A stretch of DNA of 25,706 nt from a virus. Where the stretch lies: positions 1 to 25,706 of the IMG/VR virus record IMGVR_UViG_3300042691_019489. The stretch is one strand, 5' to 3'. The first letter of the stretch is position 1; each line of letters begins with the position of its first letter. The notes beneath the pieces were generated by a model. That model was not told where the DNA came from and made no database searches. It saw nothing but the letters and a program-made list of their open reading frames with translations. A program made the translations under genes and the position numbers. Shown here in pieces: positions 451 to 25,586 of this stretch.

Positions 451-1032
451 ATGGCAGAACAAGGTACAGCAGCACGTTTAATTGAAGTTGCTACAGCAGA
501 AATTGGAACTATTGAAGGTCCTAAAGATAATGAAACAAAATATGGCGCTTATACAAAAGCAAACTTTCAACCATGGTGTGGTTCATTTGTTAACTGGTGT
601 GCAAATGAAGCAGGAGTAAAGGTTCCTAATACTGTTTACACACCTGGCGGAGCATCAGCATTTAAGAAGGCTGGTGCATGGATTGATGGAGATGTTGCAG
701 ATCCAGAACCAGGTGATATAGCCTATTTTGATTTCCCTTCAGATGGTGTTGATAGAATTTCTCACGTAGGAATTGTTATTAAGGATAACGAAGATGGAAC
801 AGTTTGGTGCATTGAAGGTAATACTTCTTCAAAGAAATCTGGAAGCCAAAGAAATGGTGGAGAGGTTTGCAAACAATTACGTGCCTACAAAAAAAATAAG
901 GCTGGAGTATTAATTTCAATTGTTGGCTTTGGAAGACCTAAATTTGGGGCATCAAAAACAGCAGCAGCCCCTGCTAAAAAATCTCAAAATAAAGCAAAAA
1001 CCTGCCCAACTTGCGGTCAACATATAAAATAA
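451..1032 (+). CDS. CHAP-domain endolysin with C-terminal zinc ribbon
   Basis: 193 aa starting at ATG 451. An ATG in the same frame at 364 would overlap the previous gene by 86 nt and is less likely. Residues about 8-165 look like a CHAP amidase/endopeptidase: Cys43 in QPWCGSFV is the probable nucleophile, His105 in ISHVGIVI the probable general base, and PGDIAYFD precedes it as is typical. CHAP enzymes cleave peptidoglycan amide bonds. A low-complexity Ala/Lys linker leads to a terminal CPTCGQ at residues 185-190, half of a zinc ribbon. No lysin wall-binding repeat is visible, so this short tail may take that role or dimerise. It lies directly after the holin-like gene. Confidence 0.8.
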   Translation: MAEQGTAARLIEVATAEIGTIEGPKDNETKYGAYTKANFQPWCGSFVNWCANEAGVKVPNTVYTPGGASAFKKAGAWIDGDVADPEPGDIAYFDFPSDGVDRISHVGIVIKDNEDGTVWCIEGNTSSKKSGSQRNGGEVCKQLRAYKKNKAGVLISIVGFGRPKFGASKTAAAPAKKSQNKAKTCPTCGQHIK

Positions 1033-1037
1033 CCTGC

Positions 1038-1066
1038 TTGACCGTTTAAAGTTTTGCTGGTATACT
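1038..1066 (+). promoter_or_regulatory. Sigma70-type promoter of the Ntn-hydrolase gene
   Basis: TTGACC at 1038-1043, a 17-nt spacer, then TATACT at 1061-1066 preceded by TGG (extended -10). The transcript has a normal leader with GGAGGGG at 1083-1089 before the ATG at 1097. Confidence 0.8.
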
Positions 1067-1096
1067 AAATATACCGCATTCTGGAGGGGTATTCTA

Positions 1097-1621
1097 ATGA
1101 CTTGTATCGCCGTAGTTCGCCATGAAGATAAAGTCTATATGGCTGGTGATCGTGGTGCTAGCGATGACGGAACAATATTAGCACTTGATGCTCCAAAGGT
1201 TTGGAAAATTGGTCCATATTTAATTGGATATGCTGGATCAATGGACGGAGAAAGAATCCGCTATAACTTTAAACCAAGTGTTCCTAATATTAAAGATATA
1301 GATAAGTTTATGCAAACTAAATTTATTAAAGAACTTAGAGAATTCTACAATGATTTTTGGGTTGATACGTCTAAAGAGGGCGATCTTGGTTTAATTATTG
1401 CAATTCGTGGACAAATATATGAACATAGTTCTGTGGATATGTCTTTATCTAAATACACTGTTGATTATTTAGCAATGGGTTCTGGAGCAGAATATGCATA
1501 TGGATATTTATTTGCTACAGATAAACAAAAAAATGCACGTAATCGTGTTATGGGGGCAGTTCATGCTGCTATTAAATTTAGCCCATCCTGCATGGGTCCA
1601 GTTGACGTAGTAAGCATTTAG
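1097..1621 (+). CDS. Proteasome-beta/HslV-like Ntn hydrolase
   Basis: 174 aa beginning Met-Thr-Cys. After Met removal the three canonical proteasome catalytic residues fall in the canonical places: Thr1, Asp17 (in AGDRGAS) and Lys33 (in APKVWKIG). Further family landmarks are YAGSMDGER near residue 46, DLGLIIAIRGQIYE near 96-109 and AMGSGAEYAYGYL near 127, matching the GSG loop. These enzymes use an N-terminal threonine to cut peptide bonds in a compartmentalised ring. No propeptide is present, so the nucleophile would be freed by Met aminopeptidase alone. No partner ATPase or alpha subunit lies in the window. It has its own promoter. The substrate is unknown; a host proteasome decoy or a homo-oligomeric Anbu/HslV-like protease are both possible. 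Confidence 0.75.
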   Translation: MTCIAVVRHEDKVYMAGDRGASDDGTILALDAPKVWKIGPYLIGYAGSMDGERIRYNFKPSVPNIKDIDKFMQTKFIKELREFYNDFWVDTSKEGDLGLIIAIRGQIYEHSSVDMSLSKYTVDYLAMGSGAEYAYGYLFATDKQKNARNRVMGAVHAAIKFSPSCMGPVDVVSI

Positions 1622-1630
1622 AGATATACT
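1602..1630 (+). promoter_or_regulatory. Leaderless promoter of the 1637 gene
   Basis: TTGACG at 1602-1607, a 17-nt spacer, TATACT at 1625-1630, then 6 nt before ATG 1637. No ribosome-binding site fits between, so the message would start at or next to the AUG. The -35 lies inside the end of the preceding coding region. Confidence 0.75.
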
Positions 1631-1636
1631 TATAGT

Positions 1637-1852
1637 ATGGAAGAGTTTGAAGAAATACTAAAAGATATTCAAAGCAAAGAGTCAGAAGACAAAGAGTTTG
1701 AAATTTGGCTTGATAACGGAATTGATCGGGGATGGATAACAGAACCGTTTTGCAATACTCATGATGGCGATCCATACATGACAGAAGAAGAGCAAGAAGA
1801 GTGGGAATCAGGTGGAGACCCATGTCAAGTAGTATTTAAAATAAAGGAGTAA
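1637..1852 (+). CDS. Small acidic protein of unknown function
   Basis: 71 aa, very rich in Glu and Asp, with a WLDNGIDRGWITEPFC segment, a THDGDP motif and two cysteines. No membrane segment or signal peptide. The start is fixed by the promoter whose -10 ends 6 nt upstream; no Shine-Dalgarno sequence is present. The next gene begins 2 nt after its stop and is probably co-transcribed. Proteins of this type occur widely as unknowns in actinobacterial phages, as far as I recall; I cannot assign a function. Confidence 0.7.
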   Translation: MEEFEEILKDIQSKESEDKEFEIWLDNGIDRGWITEPFCNTHDGDPYMTEEEQEEWESGGDPCQVVFKIKE

Positions 1853-2783: not shown

Positions 2784-3200
2784 ATGGTAACAAACTTAAC
2801 TATGGATCTTTTTAATGATCCATTTTTTATTGGCTGGAATAGAGAGTTAGCCAGACTTAGTAATGCACATAAAATAAACTCTCAATCATATCCTCCATAC
2901 GATCTTCTTAAATTAGATGAAGATACATATAGACTATCTCTTGCAGTAGCAGGATTCTCAAAAGATGACATTGATGTTTCTGTTGATAATGGATCTCTTG
3001 TTATTAAGGGAGAACTTGTAGGAGTAACAGATGCTGAAGTTGTTCATAAGGGAATTGCTGGTCGTAAGTTTACCCGCACATTTTCTTTAGGAGAATATAT
3101 GGAAGTTACTGGTGCTGAACTTAAGGACGGTATGCTAACAATTCATATTGATAGAATAGTTCCAGAAGAAAAGAAACCAAAGTCTATTAAGATCAAGTAG
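2784..3200 (+). CDS. Small heat-shock protein (Hsp20/IbpA family)
   Basis: 138 aa, close to the usual size of IbpA/IbpB. The alpha-crystallin domain spans about residues 37-130: SYPPYDLLKLDEDTYRLSLA, then VAGFSKDDIDVSV, SLVIKGE, HKGIAGRKFTRTFSLGEYMEV and LKDGMLTIHIDRIVPEEKKP, each with a clear IbpA counterpart. Such ATP-independent chaperones bind unfolding proteins in the cytoplasm and form oligomers. Hsp20 genes recur in cyanophages and other aquatic phages, where they are thought to help virion assembly or tolerate stress of infection. It has its own promoter and a strong ribosome site, and sits between the tRNA cluster and a putative small RNA. No C-terminal IxI motif is obvious beyond KSIKIK. 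Confidence 0.93.
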   Translation: MVTNLTMDLFNDPFFIGWNRELARLSNAHKINSQSYPPYDLLKLDEDTYRLSLAVAGFSKDDIDVSVDNGSLVIKGELVGVTDAEVVHKGIAGRKFTRTFSLGEYMEVTGAELKDGMLTIHIDRIVPEEKKPKSIKIK

Positions 3201-8978: not shown

Positions 8979-9740
8979 GTGATTATACAAATAATTGGAC
9001 TACCTGGATCTGGTAAAACGGAACTGGCAAAATCACTTAAAGACCGTATAAATGCTATTCATCTTAATGCAGATGAGGTAAGATCAACAGTTAATTCGGA
9101 TCTTGGTTTTACCGCTAAAGATCGCATAGAGCAAGCACGACGTATGGGTGAAATGGCTAGGCTTATTGCTAAGCAAGGAGTTGCTCCAGTAATTGTAGAT
9201 TTTGTCTGTCCAACAGATGCTACAAGAGAGGCATTTGGTAAGCCAGATATTTTAATTTTTATGGATACAATTCAAAAAGGTAGATTTGAAGACACAAATA
9301 AAATATTTACAACACCAAAAGAGTTTGACTTTATGTTTTCTGATCATGAAAAAAATCCATACGATAAAGCAAGTTTAATTATTTCTTTATTTGAATTACA
9401 TGATTGGTCCGCTCCAACAACATTGATGCTTGGTCGCTATCAACCTTGGCATGAAGGGCATCATGCTTTGTATAAAGAGGCAGGGAAAAGAACAGAGCAG
9501 GTACTACTTGGAATACGTAATACATACAAAACTAGTGAAAAAGATCCACTGACATTTGATGAAGTAAAGGGTTATATTGATAAAGATGAATTTATGAAGG
9601 ATGCAATGGTATTGCGTTTGCCAAACATTACTAACATTGTTTATGGTCGTGATGTTGGATACAAGATTGAACAAGTAGATTTGGGGGCAGAGATTCATGC
9701 TATTTCGGCTACTGAAAAACGTCGTCAACTGGGTATCTAA
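8979..9740 (+). CDS. Fused APS-kinase-like P-loop kinase and HxGH nucleotidyltransferase
   Basis: 253 aa, GTG start with GGAG upstream. N-terminal domain (1-140): Walker A GLPGSGKT at 7-14, then NADEVRSTVNSDLGFTAKDR and RRMGEMARLIAKQG, closely following the APS kinase (CysC) pattern; FVCPTDATR stands where CysC has FISPYRxxR. C-terminal domain (145-253): LMLGRYQPWHEGH with His158 and His161 as the HxGH pair, and ISATEKRR near the end (ISxTxxR). This is the NMN-adenylyltransferase/cytidylyltransferase-type signature rather than the ATP-sulfurylase one. Possible roles are PAPS supply, NAD salvage, or sugar/nucleotide activation. The domain order is the reverse of NadR. Confidence 0.82.
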   Translation: MIIQIIGLPGSGKTELAKSLKDRINAIHLNADEVRSTVNSDLGFTAKDRIEQARRMGEMARLIAKQGVAPVIVDFVCPTDATREAFGKPDILIFMDTIQKGRFEDTNKIFTTPKEFDFMFSDHEKNPYDKASLIISLFELHDWSAPTTLMLGRYQPWHEGHHALYKEAGKRTEQVLLGIRNTYKTSEKDPLTFDEVKGYIDKDEFMKDAMVLRLPNITNIVYGRDVGYKIEQVDLGAEIHAISATEKRRQLGI

Positions 9741-10012: not shown

Positions 10013-10242
10013 TGTATACAGATTCTATGCGAAAAGCCTTTCATTCAATACAGGCTCCAAAAGGATTTTCTGTTGAACTTGTTGACAACGATCACTTTCT
10101 TACAATTAAGTTAAATGAAAAACAATTTGCTAAAATGGTTCATGATGAAAAAATTCGGGCACTGCAATACACCGTTCAATTAAAAAAAGCATTAGAGATG
10201 GAAGGCGCTGTAGTATTAGTCACTAGAGAGGCTGTTAAATGA
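10012..10242 (+). CDS. Small phage protein of unknown function
   Basis: 76 aa. An N-terminal beta-like part (QAPKGFSVELVDNDHFLTIKLN) and a helical C-terminal part (FAKMVHDEKIRALQYTVQLKKALE) ending in VVLVTREAVK. No cysteines or membrane segment. Coupled by TAATG to DUF2061 and by a 4-nt overlap (ATGA) to the halogenase, so it is translated as part of that operon. Function unknown. Confidence 0.65.
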   Translation: MYTDSMRKAFHSIQAPKGFSVELVDNDHFLTIKLNEKQFAKMVHDEKIRALQYTVQLKKALEMEGAVVLVTREAVK

Positions 10243-11780
10243 AAAATATTGTTATTGTTGGTGGCGGGTCTGCTGGTTGGCTAACGGCTTTATATGCAAA
10301 AAAAATATATCAAGAAGATAATATTATTTTAGTAGAAAGTGAAGAATACGGCATTCTTGGTGCAGGAGAAGGATCTACTCCAAACATTATTGGCTTTATG
10401 AATTTTTTAGATATATCAGTAGAAGATTTAATAAAAAATTGCAATGCAACAATAAAAAATGGAATTAAATTTACAAATTGGTCTGAAAAAGAGGATAGTT
10501 ATTTTCATCCGTTTCAGTCAATAAATGAGGCATCAAATGATTATAATTTTTATTTAAATAGTCGTTTTATAGAAAACGATACAAACTTTTCTCATTACTG
10601 CGCTTCTTTAAATGATCATGAATTTAAAGATTATGTCTTTGTTGAGAAATTTTCAAATAATTTTCAAGTCCCATATTTAAAAGAAAACAATCCTATCAGC
10701 ATGAATCAACTATCTAATATATCTATTCATTTTGATGCAAACCTTTTAGCAAAATATTTAAGATTGATTGGAGAGTCTAGAGGAATCTTAAGAAAAGAAG
10801 GAATTGTAAGCGAAATATCTGAAGATTTAGAAGGATATATAAACAAAATAAAAACAAATAAAGAAGAAATAAGTTGTGATTTTGTTTTTGATTGTTCTGG
10901 TTTTAGAAGATTAATTATAGGAAAACATTATAAAATAAAATGGAAATCTTATTCAAAGTATCTTCCAGCAAAAAAAGCACTTCCATTTTTTTTAGAAATA
11001 GACAAAGACATACCACCGTATACAGAGGCAATTGCAATGGACTATGGATGGATGTGGAAGATTCCATTACAAAATAGGTATGGATGTGGATATGTCTTTG
11101 ACAGTGACTTTATTTCAGACGAAGAAGCAAAAAAAGAAATAGAAAATTACTTAGGGTTTGAGCCAATATATCCTAGAAAAGATAAAGGCGCTTTTAATTT
11201 TGAAGCAGGATGTTTTGAAGAAGTTTGGAACAAAAACTGTTTGGCTGTTGGTCTATCCTCTGGATTTTTAGAACCATTAGAGGCAACATCAATAATGCAG
11301 TTAATCACGGTTTTAACAAAATTTATGTCAAATAAACAAAACTTAACTACAAAAAATAATTTAGTTAAAAAAAGATTTAATGATATGTATTTAGAAGAAA
11401 CTCAAGAAATTGTTAACTTTTTATATTTACACTATGTAACAAATAAAATAAATACTAGTTTTTGGAAAAATTTTACAAAAAACAATGAAATGCCAGAAGA
11501 GATAAAATATATTTTGAGTGTTTGTAAAGATAAAACTTTATTTAATGATTTTGATTTTTATAAAAATAAAATTTTTTCTGCATACTCATATCACTATATT
11601 TTAATAGGAAATAAAATTATTGATAATGTTATTCTTAAAAGAAATGCAAACTTTATCTTAGACAATATCAAAAAAGAAAATTATAAAAATATTTTAAGAA
11701 AACAAGATTTTTTAATTCCTAAACTGTTGACACATAATTATTTTATTGATACAATAAAACAATGGGAGAATAATGATTAA
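10239..11780 (+). CDS. Flavin-dependent halogenase (tryptophan-halogenase family)
   Basis: 513 aa, the normal length for the family. FAD-binding IVIVGGGSAGWLTA at residues 4-17, GAGEGSTPNI at 41-50, CNATIKNGIKFTNW with the probable catalytic Lys73, FVFDCSGFRR near 215, and the diagnostic WxWxIP as WMWKIP at 271-276. GLSSGFLEPLEATSI follows (FLEPLE motif). Such enzymes use FADH2, oxygen and halide to make hypohalous acid passed to the lysine and then to an electron-rich substrate. A related viral halogenase from a cyanophage (VirX1) is known. No partner flavin reductase is in the window, so host FADH2 is implied. Its operon mates do not indicate the substrate. Confidence 0.9.
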   Translation: MKNIVIVGGGSAGWLTALYAKKIYQEDNIILVESEEYGILGAGEGSTPNIIGFMNFLDISVEDLIKNCNATIKNGIKFTNWSEKEDSYFHPFQSINEASNDYNFYLNSRFIENDTNFSHYCASLNDHEFKDYVFVEKFSNNFQVPYLKENNPISMNQLSNISIHFDANLLAKYLRLIGESRGILRKEGIVSEISEDLEGYINKIKTNKEEISCDFVFDCSGFRRLIIGKHYKIKWKSYSKYLPAKKALPFFLEIDKDIPPYTEAIAMDYGWMWKIPLQNRYGCGYVFDSDFISDEEAKKEIENYLGFEPIYPRKDKGAFNFEAGCFEEVWNKNCLAVGLSSGFLEPLEATSIMQLITVLTKFMSNKQNLTTKNNLVKKRFNDMYLEETQEIVNFLYLHYVTNKINTSFWKNFTKNNEMPEEIKYILSVCKDKTLFNDFDFYKNKIFSAYSYHYILIGNKIIDNVILKRNANFILDNIKKENYKNILRKQDFLIPKLLTHNYFIDTIKQWENND

Positions 11781-19596: not shown

Positions 19597-20286
19597 CTAT
19601 CTATAGTTTTTTGATGTCCAAAATTGTCTTTTATAAGAATTAAAAAGCAAGGTTTTTAACTTTTTAATTACTAGATCTAGTTCTGTTCGTTCTTTATTAG
19701 ATCCTATTTTATGTTTCCAAGACTCTCTTTTAAATGGTATTATTTGAGCCATTGGAGTTCCTGCGGGTATTATCCCTTCCCATTTAACATCATTAAGTAC
19801 AAATGGAAAATTAACTGGGGCTTTGTATTGGTCAGTGTCTACGACTCCTTCAAGGATAGTAAACACAGATTCCCTGTGCATTGGTTGTGTAAATAAAACT
19901 GAGTATCCAGGTGGAGTGGCAATTGCATAAGGATTCATCCATTTAGGATATGGTGCTTCATTTTTTAATGGATGCAAAGGTGCTTGAACAATTGGATGAA
20001 AATCAATAGCATGTTGAGATGCCCAACTGTAGTATGGTAGGTTATCTTGTTGCGTTACCTGAACATCTACCTGAGTATAAAGAATATAGCCAGAAGTTAT
20101 TGCATCAAATACAGGCATACACTTTTTAATTGTGTGTGATGAACTACCATCATTAGGAACCTTTTTTACTTCATTGCCAATATATTCTGATGTATCTCTA
20201 TACCAATCTGGCACTTCTTTTACTGCTGGCTTAGGTGGAAAAAAATCTAATCCAAGCACATTAGTAAATATTATTTCTTTAGACAT
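19597..20286 (-). CDS. DUF6065-like protein, copy 1
   Basis: 229 aa. Shared with the copies at 21906, 22597 and 24858: PPKPAVKEVPDWY near the start, IKKCMPVFDAITSGYILY, then ATPPGYSVLFTQPMHR, ILEGVVDTDQYKAPVNFPF and EGIIPAGTPMAQIIPFKRESW, and a basic C-terminus ending in KNYR. The C-terminal half has the GVVDTD...(strand)...GTPxAQIIP order of the dUTPase motifs III and IV. I recall such proteins as DUF6065 in phages and bacteria; function unknown. Leaderless promoter, starts 6 nt after the -10. Confidence 0.7.
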   Translation of the reverse strand: MSKEIIFTNVLGLDFFPPKPAVKEVPDWYRDTSEYIGNEVKKVPNDGSSSHTIKKCMPVFDAITSGYILYTQVDVQVTQQDNLPYYSWASQHAIDFHPIVQAPLHPLKNEAPYPKWMNPYAIATPPGYSVLFTQPMHRESVFTILEGVVDTDQYKAPVNFPFVLNDVKWEGIIPAGTPMAQIIPFKRESWKHKIGSNKERTELDLVIKKLKTLLFNSYKRQFWTSKNYR

Positions 20287-20292
20287 ATAATA

Positions 20293-20301
20293 AGTATATC
20301 A
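20293..20301 (-). promoter_or_regulatory. Extended -10 promoter, leaderless, of DUF6065-like copy 1
   Basis: On the - strand TGATATACT with -10 at 20293-20298; the ATG at 20286 is 6 nt away. The -35 at 17 nt is poor. Confidence 0.65.
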
Positions 20302-20461: not shown

Positions 20462-20860
20462 TTATTTTTCTATTTCCTTACATAGTTTATCAAATTGCGT
20501 AATAGATTTAATTTTTAAATTCATAGCAAAAGTAATTGCTTCAACATTTTTATCATTTAGTGCTGTTTTTGTATTTTTTTCTGCTACAATCCAAGAAGAA
20601 ATTGTCGTTTTAATTTTTCCAGTTGTAGATTTTTGTTTTTTATTAAGCATGTTTATATTAAAATCTATTTCTTTTAATACATCTTGGTCACTGGCCATTC
20701 CATTAGACCACTTAGACATAACTTCTGATTGGTAAGTTGTTTTAATGTTTTTGCAAGAAGCCTTATTGGCTTTAGTTTTTAATGATTTTGTTGTAGCATC
20801 AGCAGATGCAATTGGCATAAACAATGATATTAATAAAGAAGTTATTATTATTTTTTTCAT
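20462..20860 (-). CDS. Secreted lysine-rich protein
   Basis: 132 aa. Signal peptide MKKIIITSLLISLFMPIASA with cleavage after the Ala-Ser-Ala, then a Lys/Thr-rich mature part of helical character with two cysteines (KASCKNIK and KLCKEIEK) that could form a disulfide. Exported, so it may act in the periplasm or outside the host. Its promoter is one of the clearest here and the mRNA should be leaderless. Family not recognised. Confidence 0.7.
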   Translation of the reverse strand: MKKIIITSLLISLFMPIASADATTKSLKTKANKASCKNIKTTYQSEVMSKWSNGMASDQDVLKEIDFNINMLNKKQKSTTGKIKTTISSWIVAEKNTKTALNDKNVEAITFAMNLKIKSITQFDKLCKEIEK

Positions 20861-20866
20861 ATTATA

Positions 20867-20895
20867 AGTATACCAATCTAAACGAGTTTTGTAAA
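20867..20895 (-). promoter_or_regulatory. Leaderless promoter of the secreted protein
   Basis: On the - strand: TTTACA (20890-20895), 17-nt spacer ending in TGG, TATACT (20867-20872), then 6 nt (TATAAT) and ATG 20860. Among the best promoters in the window. Confidence 0.8.
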
Positions 20896-21905: not shown

Positions 21906-22604
21906 TTAATCGTATTTTTTTCTTGTCCAAAATGTTTTTTTATACCAACCATAAATTAAAGAAGAGGTTTTTGTATTATGTTCATTAGATTTTTTTAATA
22001 GTCCACTTATTTTTTTATGTATCCAATTTTCTTGACGATAAGGAATTAACTGAATTATTGGAGTTCCTTGTGGAATTATTCCTTCAAAGCCTTCTTTAAT
22101 AAAGAATGGAATTTGTCCTCTTGGATTCATGACAAGGCCTCCATCAACAATACCACTTAAAGTTATAAATGGTAGATCGTGCCTGTTAAGTGGATGTGTA
22201 AAAAGTATGCTATATCCAACTGGTACAGTATTTGAAACACCAGGTTGCCAAACAAATTCTATTGGATAATAACCAGTTGGAACTAAATCTAAACTGGATA
22301 ACTCTTGTCTTGCAATTGGTGGAAATTCAGTTTTATTCCAGGTAATAAAAGGAACACCATTATTATTTTTAACATAAAGGTCATTTGGTAAAACTATCAT
22401 ATATCCAGCAGTTAAAGAATCCATAAAGGGCATACAGTGTTTAACAGTAATATTAAACCCTTTTCCAACCTCAAACATTTCGTTATTTTTCCATTTTGGA
22501 ATTTTTTTATACCAATCTGGAATATGATTTTTTGCTGGAGTAATTATGTTTGGATATGTTTCTATTGCAGACTCATATTCTAATATTGTTTTCTTTCTAA
22601 ACAT
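21906..22604 (-). CDS. DUF6065-like protein, copy 2
   Basis: 232 aa. ITPAKNHIPDWYKKIP, VKHCMPFMDSLTAGYMIVLP, VPVGYSILFTHPLNRHDLPF, ITLSGIVDGG and EGIIPQGTPIIQLIPYRQENW reproduce the family landmarks. This copy differs by GG in place of the D-T-D after GIVD and by Arg-Gln in place of Lys-Arg. Its ATG overlaps the stop of copy 3, so the two are one transcript from 23305. Ends KKTFWTRKKYD, like copy 1. Confidence 0.7.
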   Translation of the reverse strand: MFRKKTILEYESAIETYPNIITPAKNHIPDWYKKIPKWKNNEMFEVGKGFNITVKHCMPFMDSLTAGYMIVLPNDLYVKNNNGVPFITWNKTEFPPIARQELSSLDLVPTGYYPIEFVWQPGVSNTVPVGYSILFTHPLNRHDLPFITLSGIVDGGLVMNPRGQIPFFIKEGFEGIIPQGTPIIQLIPYRQENWIHKKISGLLKKSNEHNTKTSSLIYGWYKKTFWTRKKYD

Positions 22605-23298
22605 ATGTTTTTTTATCTTTCATTAATGAAAAATAAGCACGATTTATTTTTGAATATAATTTTTCATTATCAAAAAAATGCTGATTTGGTTTTTTTACAC
22701 TAAAGTTTGATTCCCAATGATCTCTTTTGAATGGAATAATTTGAAACATTGGTGTATCTTTTTCTATCATACCTTCAAAATTATTTTTTATTACAAAAGG
22801 AACATTTATTGCTGCATCATAAATGTCTGTATCAACAATGCCAGGAATTGTATAAAATGGTAGATCTGGATAAGCCGTCGGATGCATAAAAATACATGAC
22901 CATCCTGGTGGAGTTTTGATTGTCCATCCATGCAAGTTTTTAAAAAATGGCTTAGAGTATCCATCCATAATCTTAAAATCAGCACCTTGAAAATCTGACC
23001 ATGTGTCTACGACTGGAGTATTTGTAGCCCATTGAACCCAAGGTCTTTCATTTTTCTGTGTTACATATAAGTCAGCCCACAATGGAACATAGTACCCAGC
23101 ACCAAGCATGTCTAATGTTGGAACACATCTTTTTACAGTAACAGTTGGATATGGATCTAAACTAAATTTATTTTCACTATTTGAGTAGGCTGGAGTTTCT
23201 TTCCACCATTTAGGCAAACCTTTTATTGCTGGATATGGCCTTGGCCTTACATTCCACACATGCTCATCTTGTGCTACAAAATCTATAATTTTCCCCAT
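22597..23298 (-). CDS. DUF6065-like protein, copy 3
   Basis: 233 aa. RPYPAIKGLPKWWKETP, VKRCVPTLDMLGAGYYVPLWADLYV, IKTPPGWSCIFMHPTAYPDL, IPGIVDTDIYDAAINVPFVI and EGMIEKDTPMFQIIPFKRDHW. It is closest to copy 4 in the LPKWF/W and the VPLWADxxV stretch. The last region is variable. The mRNA is probably leaderless. It heads an operon with copy 2. Confidence 0.7.
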   Translation of the reverse strand: MGKIIDFVAQDEHVWNVRPRPYPAIKGLPKWWKETPAYSNSENKFSLDPYPTVTVKRCVPTLDMLGAGYYVPLWADLYVTQKNERPWVQWATNTPVVDTWSDFQGADFKIMDGYSKPFFKNLHGWTIKTPPGWSCIFMHPTAYPDLPFYTIPGIVDTDIYDAAINVPFVIKNNFEGMIEKDTPMFQIIPFKRDHWESNFSVKKPNQHFFDNEKLYSKINRAYFSLMKDKKTYV

Positions 23299-23304
23299 AT
23301 ATTA

Positions 23305-23313
23305 AGTATAGCA
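23305..23313 (-). promoter_or_regulatory. Extended -10 promoter, leaderless, of DUF6065-like copies 3 and 2
   Basis: On the - strand TGCTATACT with -10 at 23305-23310; ATG 23298 is 6 nt downstream. The -35 is weak at 17 nt. Confidence 0.65.
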
Positions 23314-24857: not shown

Positions 24858-25586
24858 TTATTTAAATTTCTTTTTAGAATGATGGTTTTTTAAGTAATGT
24901 CCTACCATTGTGCCATTAAAGTTTTTTTCTTCAATAACATCATAGTATTCACCATCTTCGTAGTAATCAAAAGTAGAGTACCAATCATCTCGTTTAAAAG
25001 GAATGATTTGTGCCATTGGAGTACCTTTTTCAACTATACCTTGAAAACCAGTTTTAATCCACATTGGAAAGATTAACTCAAGAGTTGACCTATCAGTATC
25101 TACAATTGCTGGAACAGCCTTAAATGGTAAGTCGTTATGGCCAAGTGGGGATACTATCAAACATGAATACCCCTTGGGTGTTTGTGGTATCCAGCAATTT
25201 AAGTACTTGTAAACTTGGTTGTCATATCCTGTTGGTGGAATAATATTTTGTGTAGATTCTCCATGTTTGGCAAATATATCATGCCTTGTTTTCCAAAATA
25301 GATCACCCCCAGATTCAGTCTGTTCAACCATTACATCTGCCCATAGGGGAACAATATATCCTGAACTCATTCCATCAAGCAATGGAACACATTTTTTAAG
25401 TGTTGCATTTGCTCCTCTATCTCTAAAATGAAGTTTTCCATCATTTGGGAAATTTGGATTGCTTTTGTCTGAATATGGTTCCATATCTAAAAACCATTTT
25501 GGTAATTGTTTAACTGCTGGATATGGCTTAGACTGAATGTTAAATTCTGTTTTACTTCTAGCCCTAAAATTTATATTTTTTGACAT
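24858..25586 (-). CDS. DUF6065-like protein, copy 4
   Basis: 242 aa, the longest copy, with an extra loop (about residues 45-60, GKLHFRDRGAN). KPYPAVKQLPKWFLDMEPY, LKKCVPLLDGMSSGYIVPLWADVMV, TPKGYSCLIVSPLGHNDLPF, PAIVDTDRSTLELIFPM and QGIVEKGTPMAQIIPFKRDDW show the common family. It has a promoter with TTGATC-N17-TATACT and a ribosome site (GGTGGG), unlike the leaderless copies. Its role is unknown, see the paralog finding. Confidence 0.7.
   Translation of the reverse strand: MSKNINFRARSKTEFNIQSKPYPAVKQLPKWFLDMEPYSDKSNPNFPNDGKLHFRDRGANATLKKCVPLLDGMSSGYIVPLWADVMVEQTESGGDLFWKTRHDIFAKHGESTQNIIPPTGYDNQVYKYLNCWIPQTPKGYSCLIVSPLGHNDLPFKAVPAIVDTDRSTLELIFPMWIKTGFQGIVEKGTPMAQIIPFKRDDWYSTFDYYEDGEYYDVIEEKNFNGTMVGHYLKNHHSKKKFK

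Follow-up and report, generated by a model that had tools for sequence, protein, structure and literature searches.

The question raised by this locus is whether a phage gene that resembles a proteasome beta subunit encodes a proteolytic chamber of the virus itself or a protein that acts on the proteasome of its host. The window, meaning the whole stretch of DNA analysed, comprises 25,706 nucleotides of the IMG/VR virus record IMGVR_UViG_3300042691_019489. The protease gene and the elements around its start are as follows.

451..1032, + strand: endolysin with a CHAP domain, 5' of the protease gene (context and domain match)
1061..1066, + strand: TATACT, predicted extended -10-like element of the protease gene (TGGTATACT; sequence reading)
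1083..1089, + strand: GGAGGGG, ribosome-binding-like site, 7 nt 5' of the protease ATG (sequence reading)
1097..1621, + strand: proteasome-like (HslV/BPH-type) Thr peptidase of 174 aa (ORF, PF00227 and phrog_1040 profiles, AlphaFold model)
1100-1102, 1148-1150 and 1196-1198, + strand: catalytic codons Thr2, Asp18 and Lys34 (by family alignment)

The identity of the protease is well supported, and its kind is an ordinary one. It is a member of a known phage group, phrog_1040, and of group I of the homologues of Fuchs et al. 2021. The phrog_1040 profile, labelled 'peptidase HslV family', matches residues 1-174 with E=4.1e-21, and PF00227 matches with E=1e-5 (25.7 bits vs a cut-off of 22.4). The former profile reaches 36 of 36 family members, and the latter, at 0.01, just 19 of the 36; searching the window record with PF00227 in six frames gave zero matches at 1e-3. 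Three NCBIfam models, for the archaeal beta subunit, HslV and the bacterial beta subunit, give weak matches far under their cut-offs. Proteasome-like Ntn hydrolases of this kind correspond to MEROPS T1.

The gene has an ATG start that directly precedes the Thr codon. No earlier in-frame start codon is present in the window, so a propeptide is impossible in the window protease; the original prediction had seen none. The same holds widely among the relatives: no upstream in-frame start is found in 111 of 139 distinct coding sequences (window included), 26 have one, and 2 lie at a contig edge. By a loose pattern, a ribosome-binding-like site precedes the ATG in 131 of the 139 distinct relatives. 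After removal of the Met, the register Thr1, Asp17 and Lys33 holds (T2, D18 and K34 in Met-numbering). The GSG turn is G128-S129-G130, and the oxyanion Gly position is filled by A46-G47 (mature 45-46).

The relatives come from three scans of IMG/VR. Scan 1 confirmed 423 related stretches; the 80 best, with 88-100% identity, were kept. Scan 2 used a mixed alignment and confirmed 517, and the 80 kept were again close. In scan 3 the ranking was by similarity to a Vibrio phage protein; 520 were confirmed, and the 80 kept include distant phages. From 247 loci with a match, 246 proteins were extracted, 126 of them distinct; 214 of the 246 are 174 aa long. Within the clade of the window, identities span 76-100%; below that comes a gap to 38%, the highest value outside the clade among the sequences compared.

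The catalytic residues are kept throughout these relatives, which bears out the active site that had been read from the window alone. Of the 126 distinct proteins, 125 have T as the nucleophile and one has S, and Asp18 and Lys34 are present in all 126. These residues were not selected for by the scan, because the pattern used for distant relatives spanned residues 40-49 only. The remainder of the site is less uniform. S129 of the GSG turn is replaced by C in 13 of the 126 and by A in 2, and Gly47 of the oxyanion site is S or T in 22. S162 aligns gaplessly to a BPH aspartate, presumably proteasome Asp166. Most of the 126 have N (68) or S (43) at this position, and 2 have D; as it is so rarely D, the extended active site of the protease is not canonical. 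The gene is under purifying selection. The median dN/dS of the window gene against 108 distinct genes is 0.093 (range 0.04-0.56), the set being 108 of the 111 distinct 174-codon genes after three with dS <=0.3 were left out.

An AlphaFold2 model built from 36 sequences (pLDDT 92.1, pTM 0.88) is confidently predicted to have the alpha-beta-beta-alpha fold of an Ntn hydrolase. In VIA-align, 1000 of the 1000 chains compared with the model scored a Z of at least 8. The best is BPH 5ovt (Z 20.4, 165 aligned, 2.5 A), followed by HslV 6kr1 (Z 20.1, 163 aligned, 2.7 A) and Mycobacterium tuberculosis PrcB 3mka (Z 18.8, 168 aligned, 3.2 A). Rows within 1 Z unit were counted as tied, so BPH and HslV are level. 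Foldseek on the PDB also placed BPH and HslV as best matches, with Anbu at rank 48. Against BFVD, the model matches proteins of other phages best; one belongs to Gordonia phage Daredevil, and Caulobacter phages contribute short ones. A family-profile search of the PDB returned Thermotoga HslV 1m4y first (full length, E=2.6e-9) and BPH 5ovu second, also full length; mycobacterial PrcB was matched over residues 2-42 only.

These comparisons separate the candidate branches. The protease shares with BPH (5ovs, 5ovt, 5ovu) and HslV a Z of 19-20, a full-length profile match and a short C-terminus that ends in a strand, but identity to them is 16-24% and the position aligned to Asp166 is mostly N or S in the protease family. 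The HslV equivalog TIGR03692 is not passed either (21.1 bits vs 157.75). Anbu is a weaker fold match than BPH or HslV. It has a long C-terminal helix H5 that forms a coiled coil, whereas the model of the protease lacks H5 and closes with a helix (147-161) and a final strand (170-173). An HslV/Anbu-like machine had been suggested for this gene; the HslV-like half of that suggestion, extended to BPH, is favoured, and the Anbu half is not. Group I homologues have a compact core without S12/H5 and without insertions (PMC8665760), which the 174-aa model fits. PPH, compared by description only, has about 140 residues and lacks H2 (PMC8665760). The protease, at 174 aa, does not fit that size; its model places two helices, at 51-57 and 68-86, between S6 and S7 (the naming is that of this analysis).

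The hosts of the clade phages are supported as actinobacterial, in agreement with the original prediction, by the gene content of the phages. A WhiB gene is present in the window and scores over its cut-off in 9 of 9 large protease-bearing records, and in 0 of 1 without the protease. These nine records (98-119 kb) were picked for length among the clade contigs and may be fragments. The habitat of the phages is presumably freshwater, judging from general background and from the Actinomycetia phage DSL-LC01. Prc proteasomes are present in many Actinobacteria, and PrcB matches the protease by both profile and fold, so the phage subunit could in principle join the Prc proteasome of the host, either in a mixed ring or as a decoy, and redirect or block it. 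This is very improbable. The catalytic residues are invariant, although a decoy would not need them, and the profile match to PrcB ends after the first ~40 residues. The PrcB model TIGR03690 is not passed (16.3 bits vs 191.9). PrcB is expected to carry a propeptide before Thr1, and the window protease has none. Moreover, a direct search listed phrog_1040-family members in phages of Salmonella, Escherichia, Vibrio, Aeromonas and Tenacibaculum. These genera are not known for Prc proteasomes.

The nine large records also bear on what the phage supplies besides the protease. An AAA_2/HslU-type gene was found in none of the nine, which may be fragments, and no AAA match over the cut-off was found in them, two records having sub-threshold matches of ~35 positions; the original prediction had likewise seen no partner ATPase in the window. 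Pup matches were likewise found in none of the nine. Each record has exactly one proteasome-like gene by the family profile, which a distant alpha subunit could escape. No PADLOC match, as would point to a defence-system role, was found. An HslU is not expected in the host, because Table 1 of PMC8665760 leaves HslV unmarked for Actinobacteria.

From its sequence and predicted structure, the protease is probably an active Thr peptidase that belongs to the HslV/BPH (group I) branch and forms its own compartment independently, carried by a phage without an unfoldase of its own. Methionine aminopeptidase would cut off Met1 and expose Thr1, so that no propeptide processing would be needed. The subunits would form a homomeric ring or double ring enclosing the active sites, by analogy with the family. 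From the nine large records, the phage appears to provide no unfoldase, Pup tag or second proteasome-like subunit. With no phage unfoldase detected, the ring would either take unfolded proteins and peptides unaided, as proposed for BPH, or borrow a host AAA+ enzyme other than HslU. Its role might be protein turnover in infection, whether the clearing of particular host or phage proteins or amino-acid recycling in a nutrient-poor host. If the protease is active, it would show that a virus is able to bring its own proteasome-type chamber.

A proteasome fold does not have to degrade proteins. Connectase proves the fold capable of other chemistry (PMC8665760), and the protease could be a processing enzyme, ligase or amidase that acts on one phage or host protein. 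The substitution at the Asp166 position and the lack of a detected unfoldase in the nine large records are consistent with such a role. However, connectase is without helices H1/H2 and has an insertion between S3 and S4 (PMC8665760), whereas the model of the protease has two helices there and no such insertion, and its nearest folds are general peptidases. We consider this role quite unlikely, and retain the self-compartmentalising peptidase as the preferred reading.

The most constant feature of the surroundings lies directly downstream of the protease.

1625..1630, + strand: TATACT, leaderless-type -10, just past the protease stop and six bases before the ATG of the downstream gene (spacing conservation and motif excess)
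1637..1852, + strand: P0002, acidic protein of 71 aa with a net charge of -17, near-constant neighbour of the protease (ORF and locus survey)

Neighbours were surveyed in 133 clade loci, 80 from scan 1 and 53 from scan 3, a few of which may share a contig; L204, L210 and L239 (divergent or at a contig edge) and the distant L168-L190 were left out. P0002 is downstream of the protease in 130 of the 133, and in 130 of 130 with room, because the three loci without it end 60-104 bases past the protease. The remaining neighbours vary much more; the endolysin, for example, is within 400 bp upstream in 24 of the 133 loci (9 without room). A scan centred on P0002 confirmed 234 stretches; among the best 80, which were kept, 63 have the protease immediately upstream and a further 15 have it upstream at a distance of 600-1040 bp. 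One has no protease and one has no room for it, so the protease is upstream in 78 of 79 with room. Thus a large, tight protease clade in WhiB-bearing phages, comprising 423 IMG/VR stretches and having P0002 as its constant neighbour, is added to what the original prediction described. The conserved protease and its neighbour are a concrete protein pair for study.

There are 148 distinct protease-P0002 pairs, 132 adjacent and 16 not. About 15 distinct loci have differing genes inserted between the two, and one (L268) has a broken protease frame instead. Read by eye, the inserts include a radical-SAM-like protein, relatives of a set of ~230-aa paralogues of the window, and others. The window encodes four of these paralogues (229-242 aa; 19597-20286, 21906-22604, 22597-23298 and 24858-25586, all - strand) with 30-34% identity to the first; none has a Pfam match.

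The spacer between the two genes is as constant as their order. From the protease stop to the P0002 ATG there are exactly 18 nt in 125 of the 132 distinct adjacent loci, with the typical sequence GAGTATACTTATAATATG. In the window, TATACT-N6-ATG occurs 5 times, where 0.42 would be expected, and four of these sites lie at ORF starts:

1625-1639, + strand: TATACT-N6-ATG at an ORF start
20284-20298, - strand: TATACT-N6-ATG at an ORF start
20858-20872, - strand: TATACT-N6-ATG at an ORF start
23296-23310, - strand: TATACT-N6-ATG at an ORF start

The constant spacing and the excess of the motif point to a leaderless promoter for P0002, and TATACT-N6-ATG looks like a leaderless promoter class of the window phage. 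Leaderless expression is a habit of Actinobacteria. A fusion of the protease and P0002 by stop-codon readthrough was also considered, as P0002 is in the frame of the protease in 128 of the 132 distinct adjacent loci. It was rejected: the protease stop varies (TAG 83, TAA 42, TGA 7 in the 132), and a second stop in the same frame occurs in many spacers. The 18-nt spacing appears better explained by the leaderless promoter.

Whether P0002 works with the protease is a separate matter. The pairing persists despite the inserts and the variable other neighbours, and P0002 is a small, acidic and strongly conserved family in which C39, H42, C63 and GGDPC are invariant. It might be an adaptor, an inhibitor, a degradation tag or a dedicated substrate of the protease. 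Outside the clade the pairing does not hold. Gp2 of Mycobacterium phage Aminay matches the P0002 profile (E=2.2e-9), but no protease match is found in the Aminay genome, and a 60-kb contig (G010, locus L304) has P0002 and no protease. Conversely, the P0002 profile finds nothing at E <=1 in four other actinophages that carry the protease (DSL-LC01, Pitbull, Pumpernickel and LeeroyJenkins), and no GxDPC motif was found near the protease among the distant relatives examined. P0002 is therefore constant within one clade and no general partner. It also has its own promoter-like element, and its AlphaFold model (pLDDT 52.5) is uninformative. On balance, a two-component unit is unlikely. Still more specific is an actinophage two-gene turnover module, in which a self-standing proteasome-type ring would be targeted, tagged or restrained by a leaderless-expressed acidic Cys/His protein, with no phage unfoldase and in hosts without HslUV; this is rather doubtful. 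As a further candidate, a Pup-like tag was rejected for P0002, given the absence of Pup from the nine large records and of any match to P0002 among Pfam, PHROG and PADLOC families.

Related phage proteases have been noticed before. Members of phrog_1040, such as those of the T5-like phage EPS7 (AGC_0103), Aeromonas phage 2L372X and Vibrio phage 166E36-1, are phage-borne and have the same active site, but identity of the window clade to anything outside it does not exceed the 38% given above. PPH and AAH are phage-linked group I homologues, and the group is also discussed with CPH and RPC (PMC8665760). For PPH and AAH, neither a co-occurring AAA+ partner nor an informative genomic context was found, and no Actinobacteria-specific phage was found to carry AAH (PMC8665760). 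In the literature found, phage proteasome homologues are catalogued without an assigned function (PMC8665760).

Among actinophages, the homologues of Arthrobacter phages Pitbull and Hum25 and Microbacterium phages Pumpernickel and LeeroyJenkins, all with actinobacterial hosts, carry the GenBank gene label 'protease', and that of DSL-LC01 is labelled 'ATP-dependent protease subunit'. A profile search (E 1e-33 to 4e-15) places the proteins of Pitbull, Pumpernickel, LeeroyJenkins and DSL-LC01 in the protease family, but that of Pitbull is distant from the window protease (23% identity). No actinophage is named among the matches listed in the direct search (60 of 155 records). A search of open-licence papers found none on the protease gene in actinophages: the words protease and HslV are absent from the available portion of the main text of the DSL-LC01 paper (PMC10611076), and no word beginning 'proteas' occurs in the available portion of the Nanopelagicales phage paper (PMC10202952).

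Cellular relatives are distant. Genome contigs scanned with P0001 alone gave zero, and the same scan with alignment A5 gave 14, mostly from myxobacterial MAGs; over their best segments they are 25-32% identical, and none has an actinobacterial title. Two of these 14 genomes were checked by profile, with a match in both. When the Tunturi_5 protein alone served as query for distant relatives, the scan gave zero matches.

Two variants of the architecture occur among the phage relatives. Aeromonas phage 2L372X has tandem 'peptidase HslV family' genes, 2L372X_210 and 2L372X_211 (L085, 4001 to the record end), which are possibly a two-subunit version. Vibrio phages 166E36-1 (L088, 327 aa) and VPMCC14 (L089, 320 aa) have homologues with a C-terminal extension, which may be of the RPC type described by Fuchs et al.

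Other genes of the window are of separate interest. A small heat-shock protein, Hsp20, is encoded at 2784-3200 (+ strand; PF00011, E=6e-18); of 122 relatives with room, 45 have it downstream. In a single ORF at 8979-9740 (+ strand), an APS-kinase/AAA_33-like domain precedes a weak cytidylyltransferase-like match. Finally, a tryptophan-halogenase-like gene lies at 10239-11780 (+ strand; PF04820, E=8e-106), and a tryptophan halogenase is likewise reported for phage DSL-LC01 in the available portion of its paper (PMC10611076).
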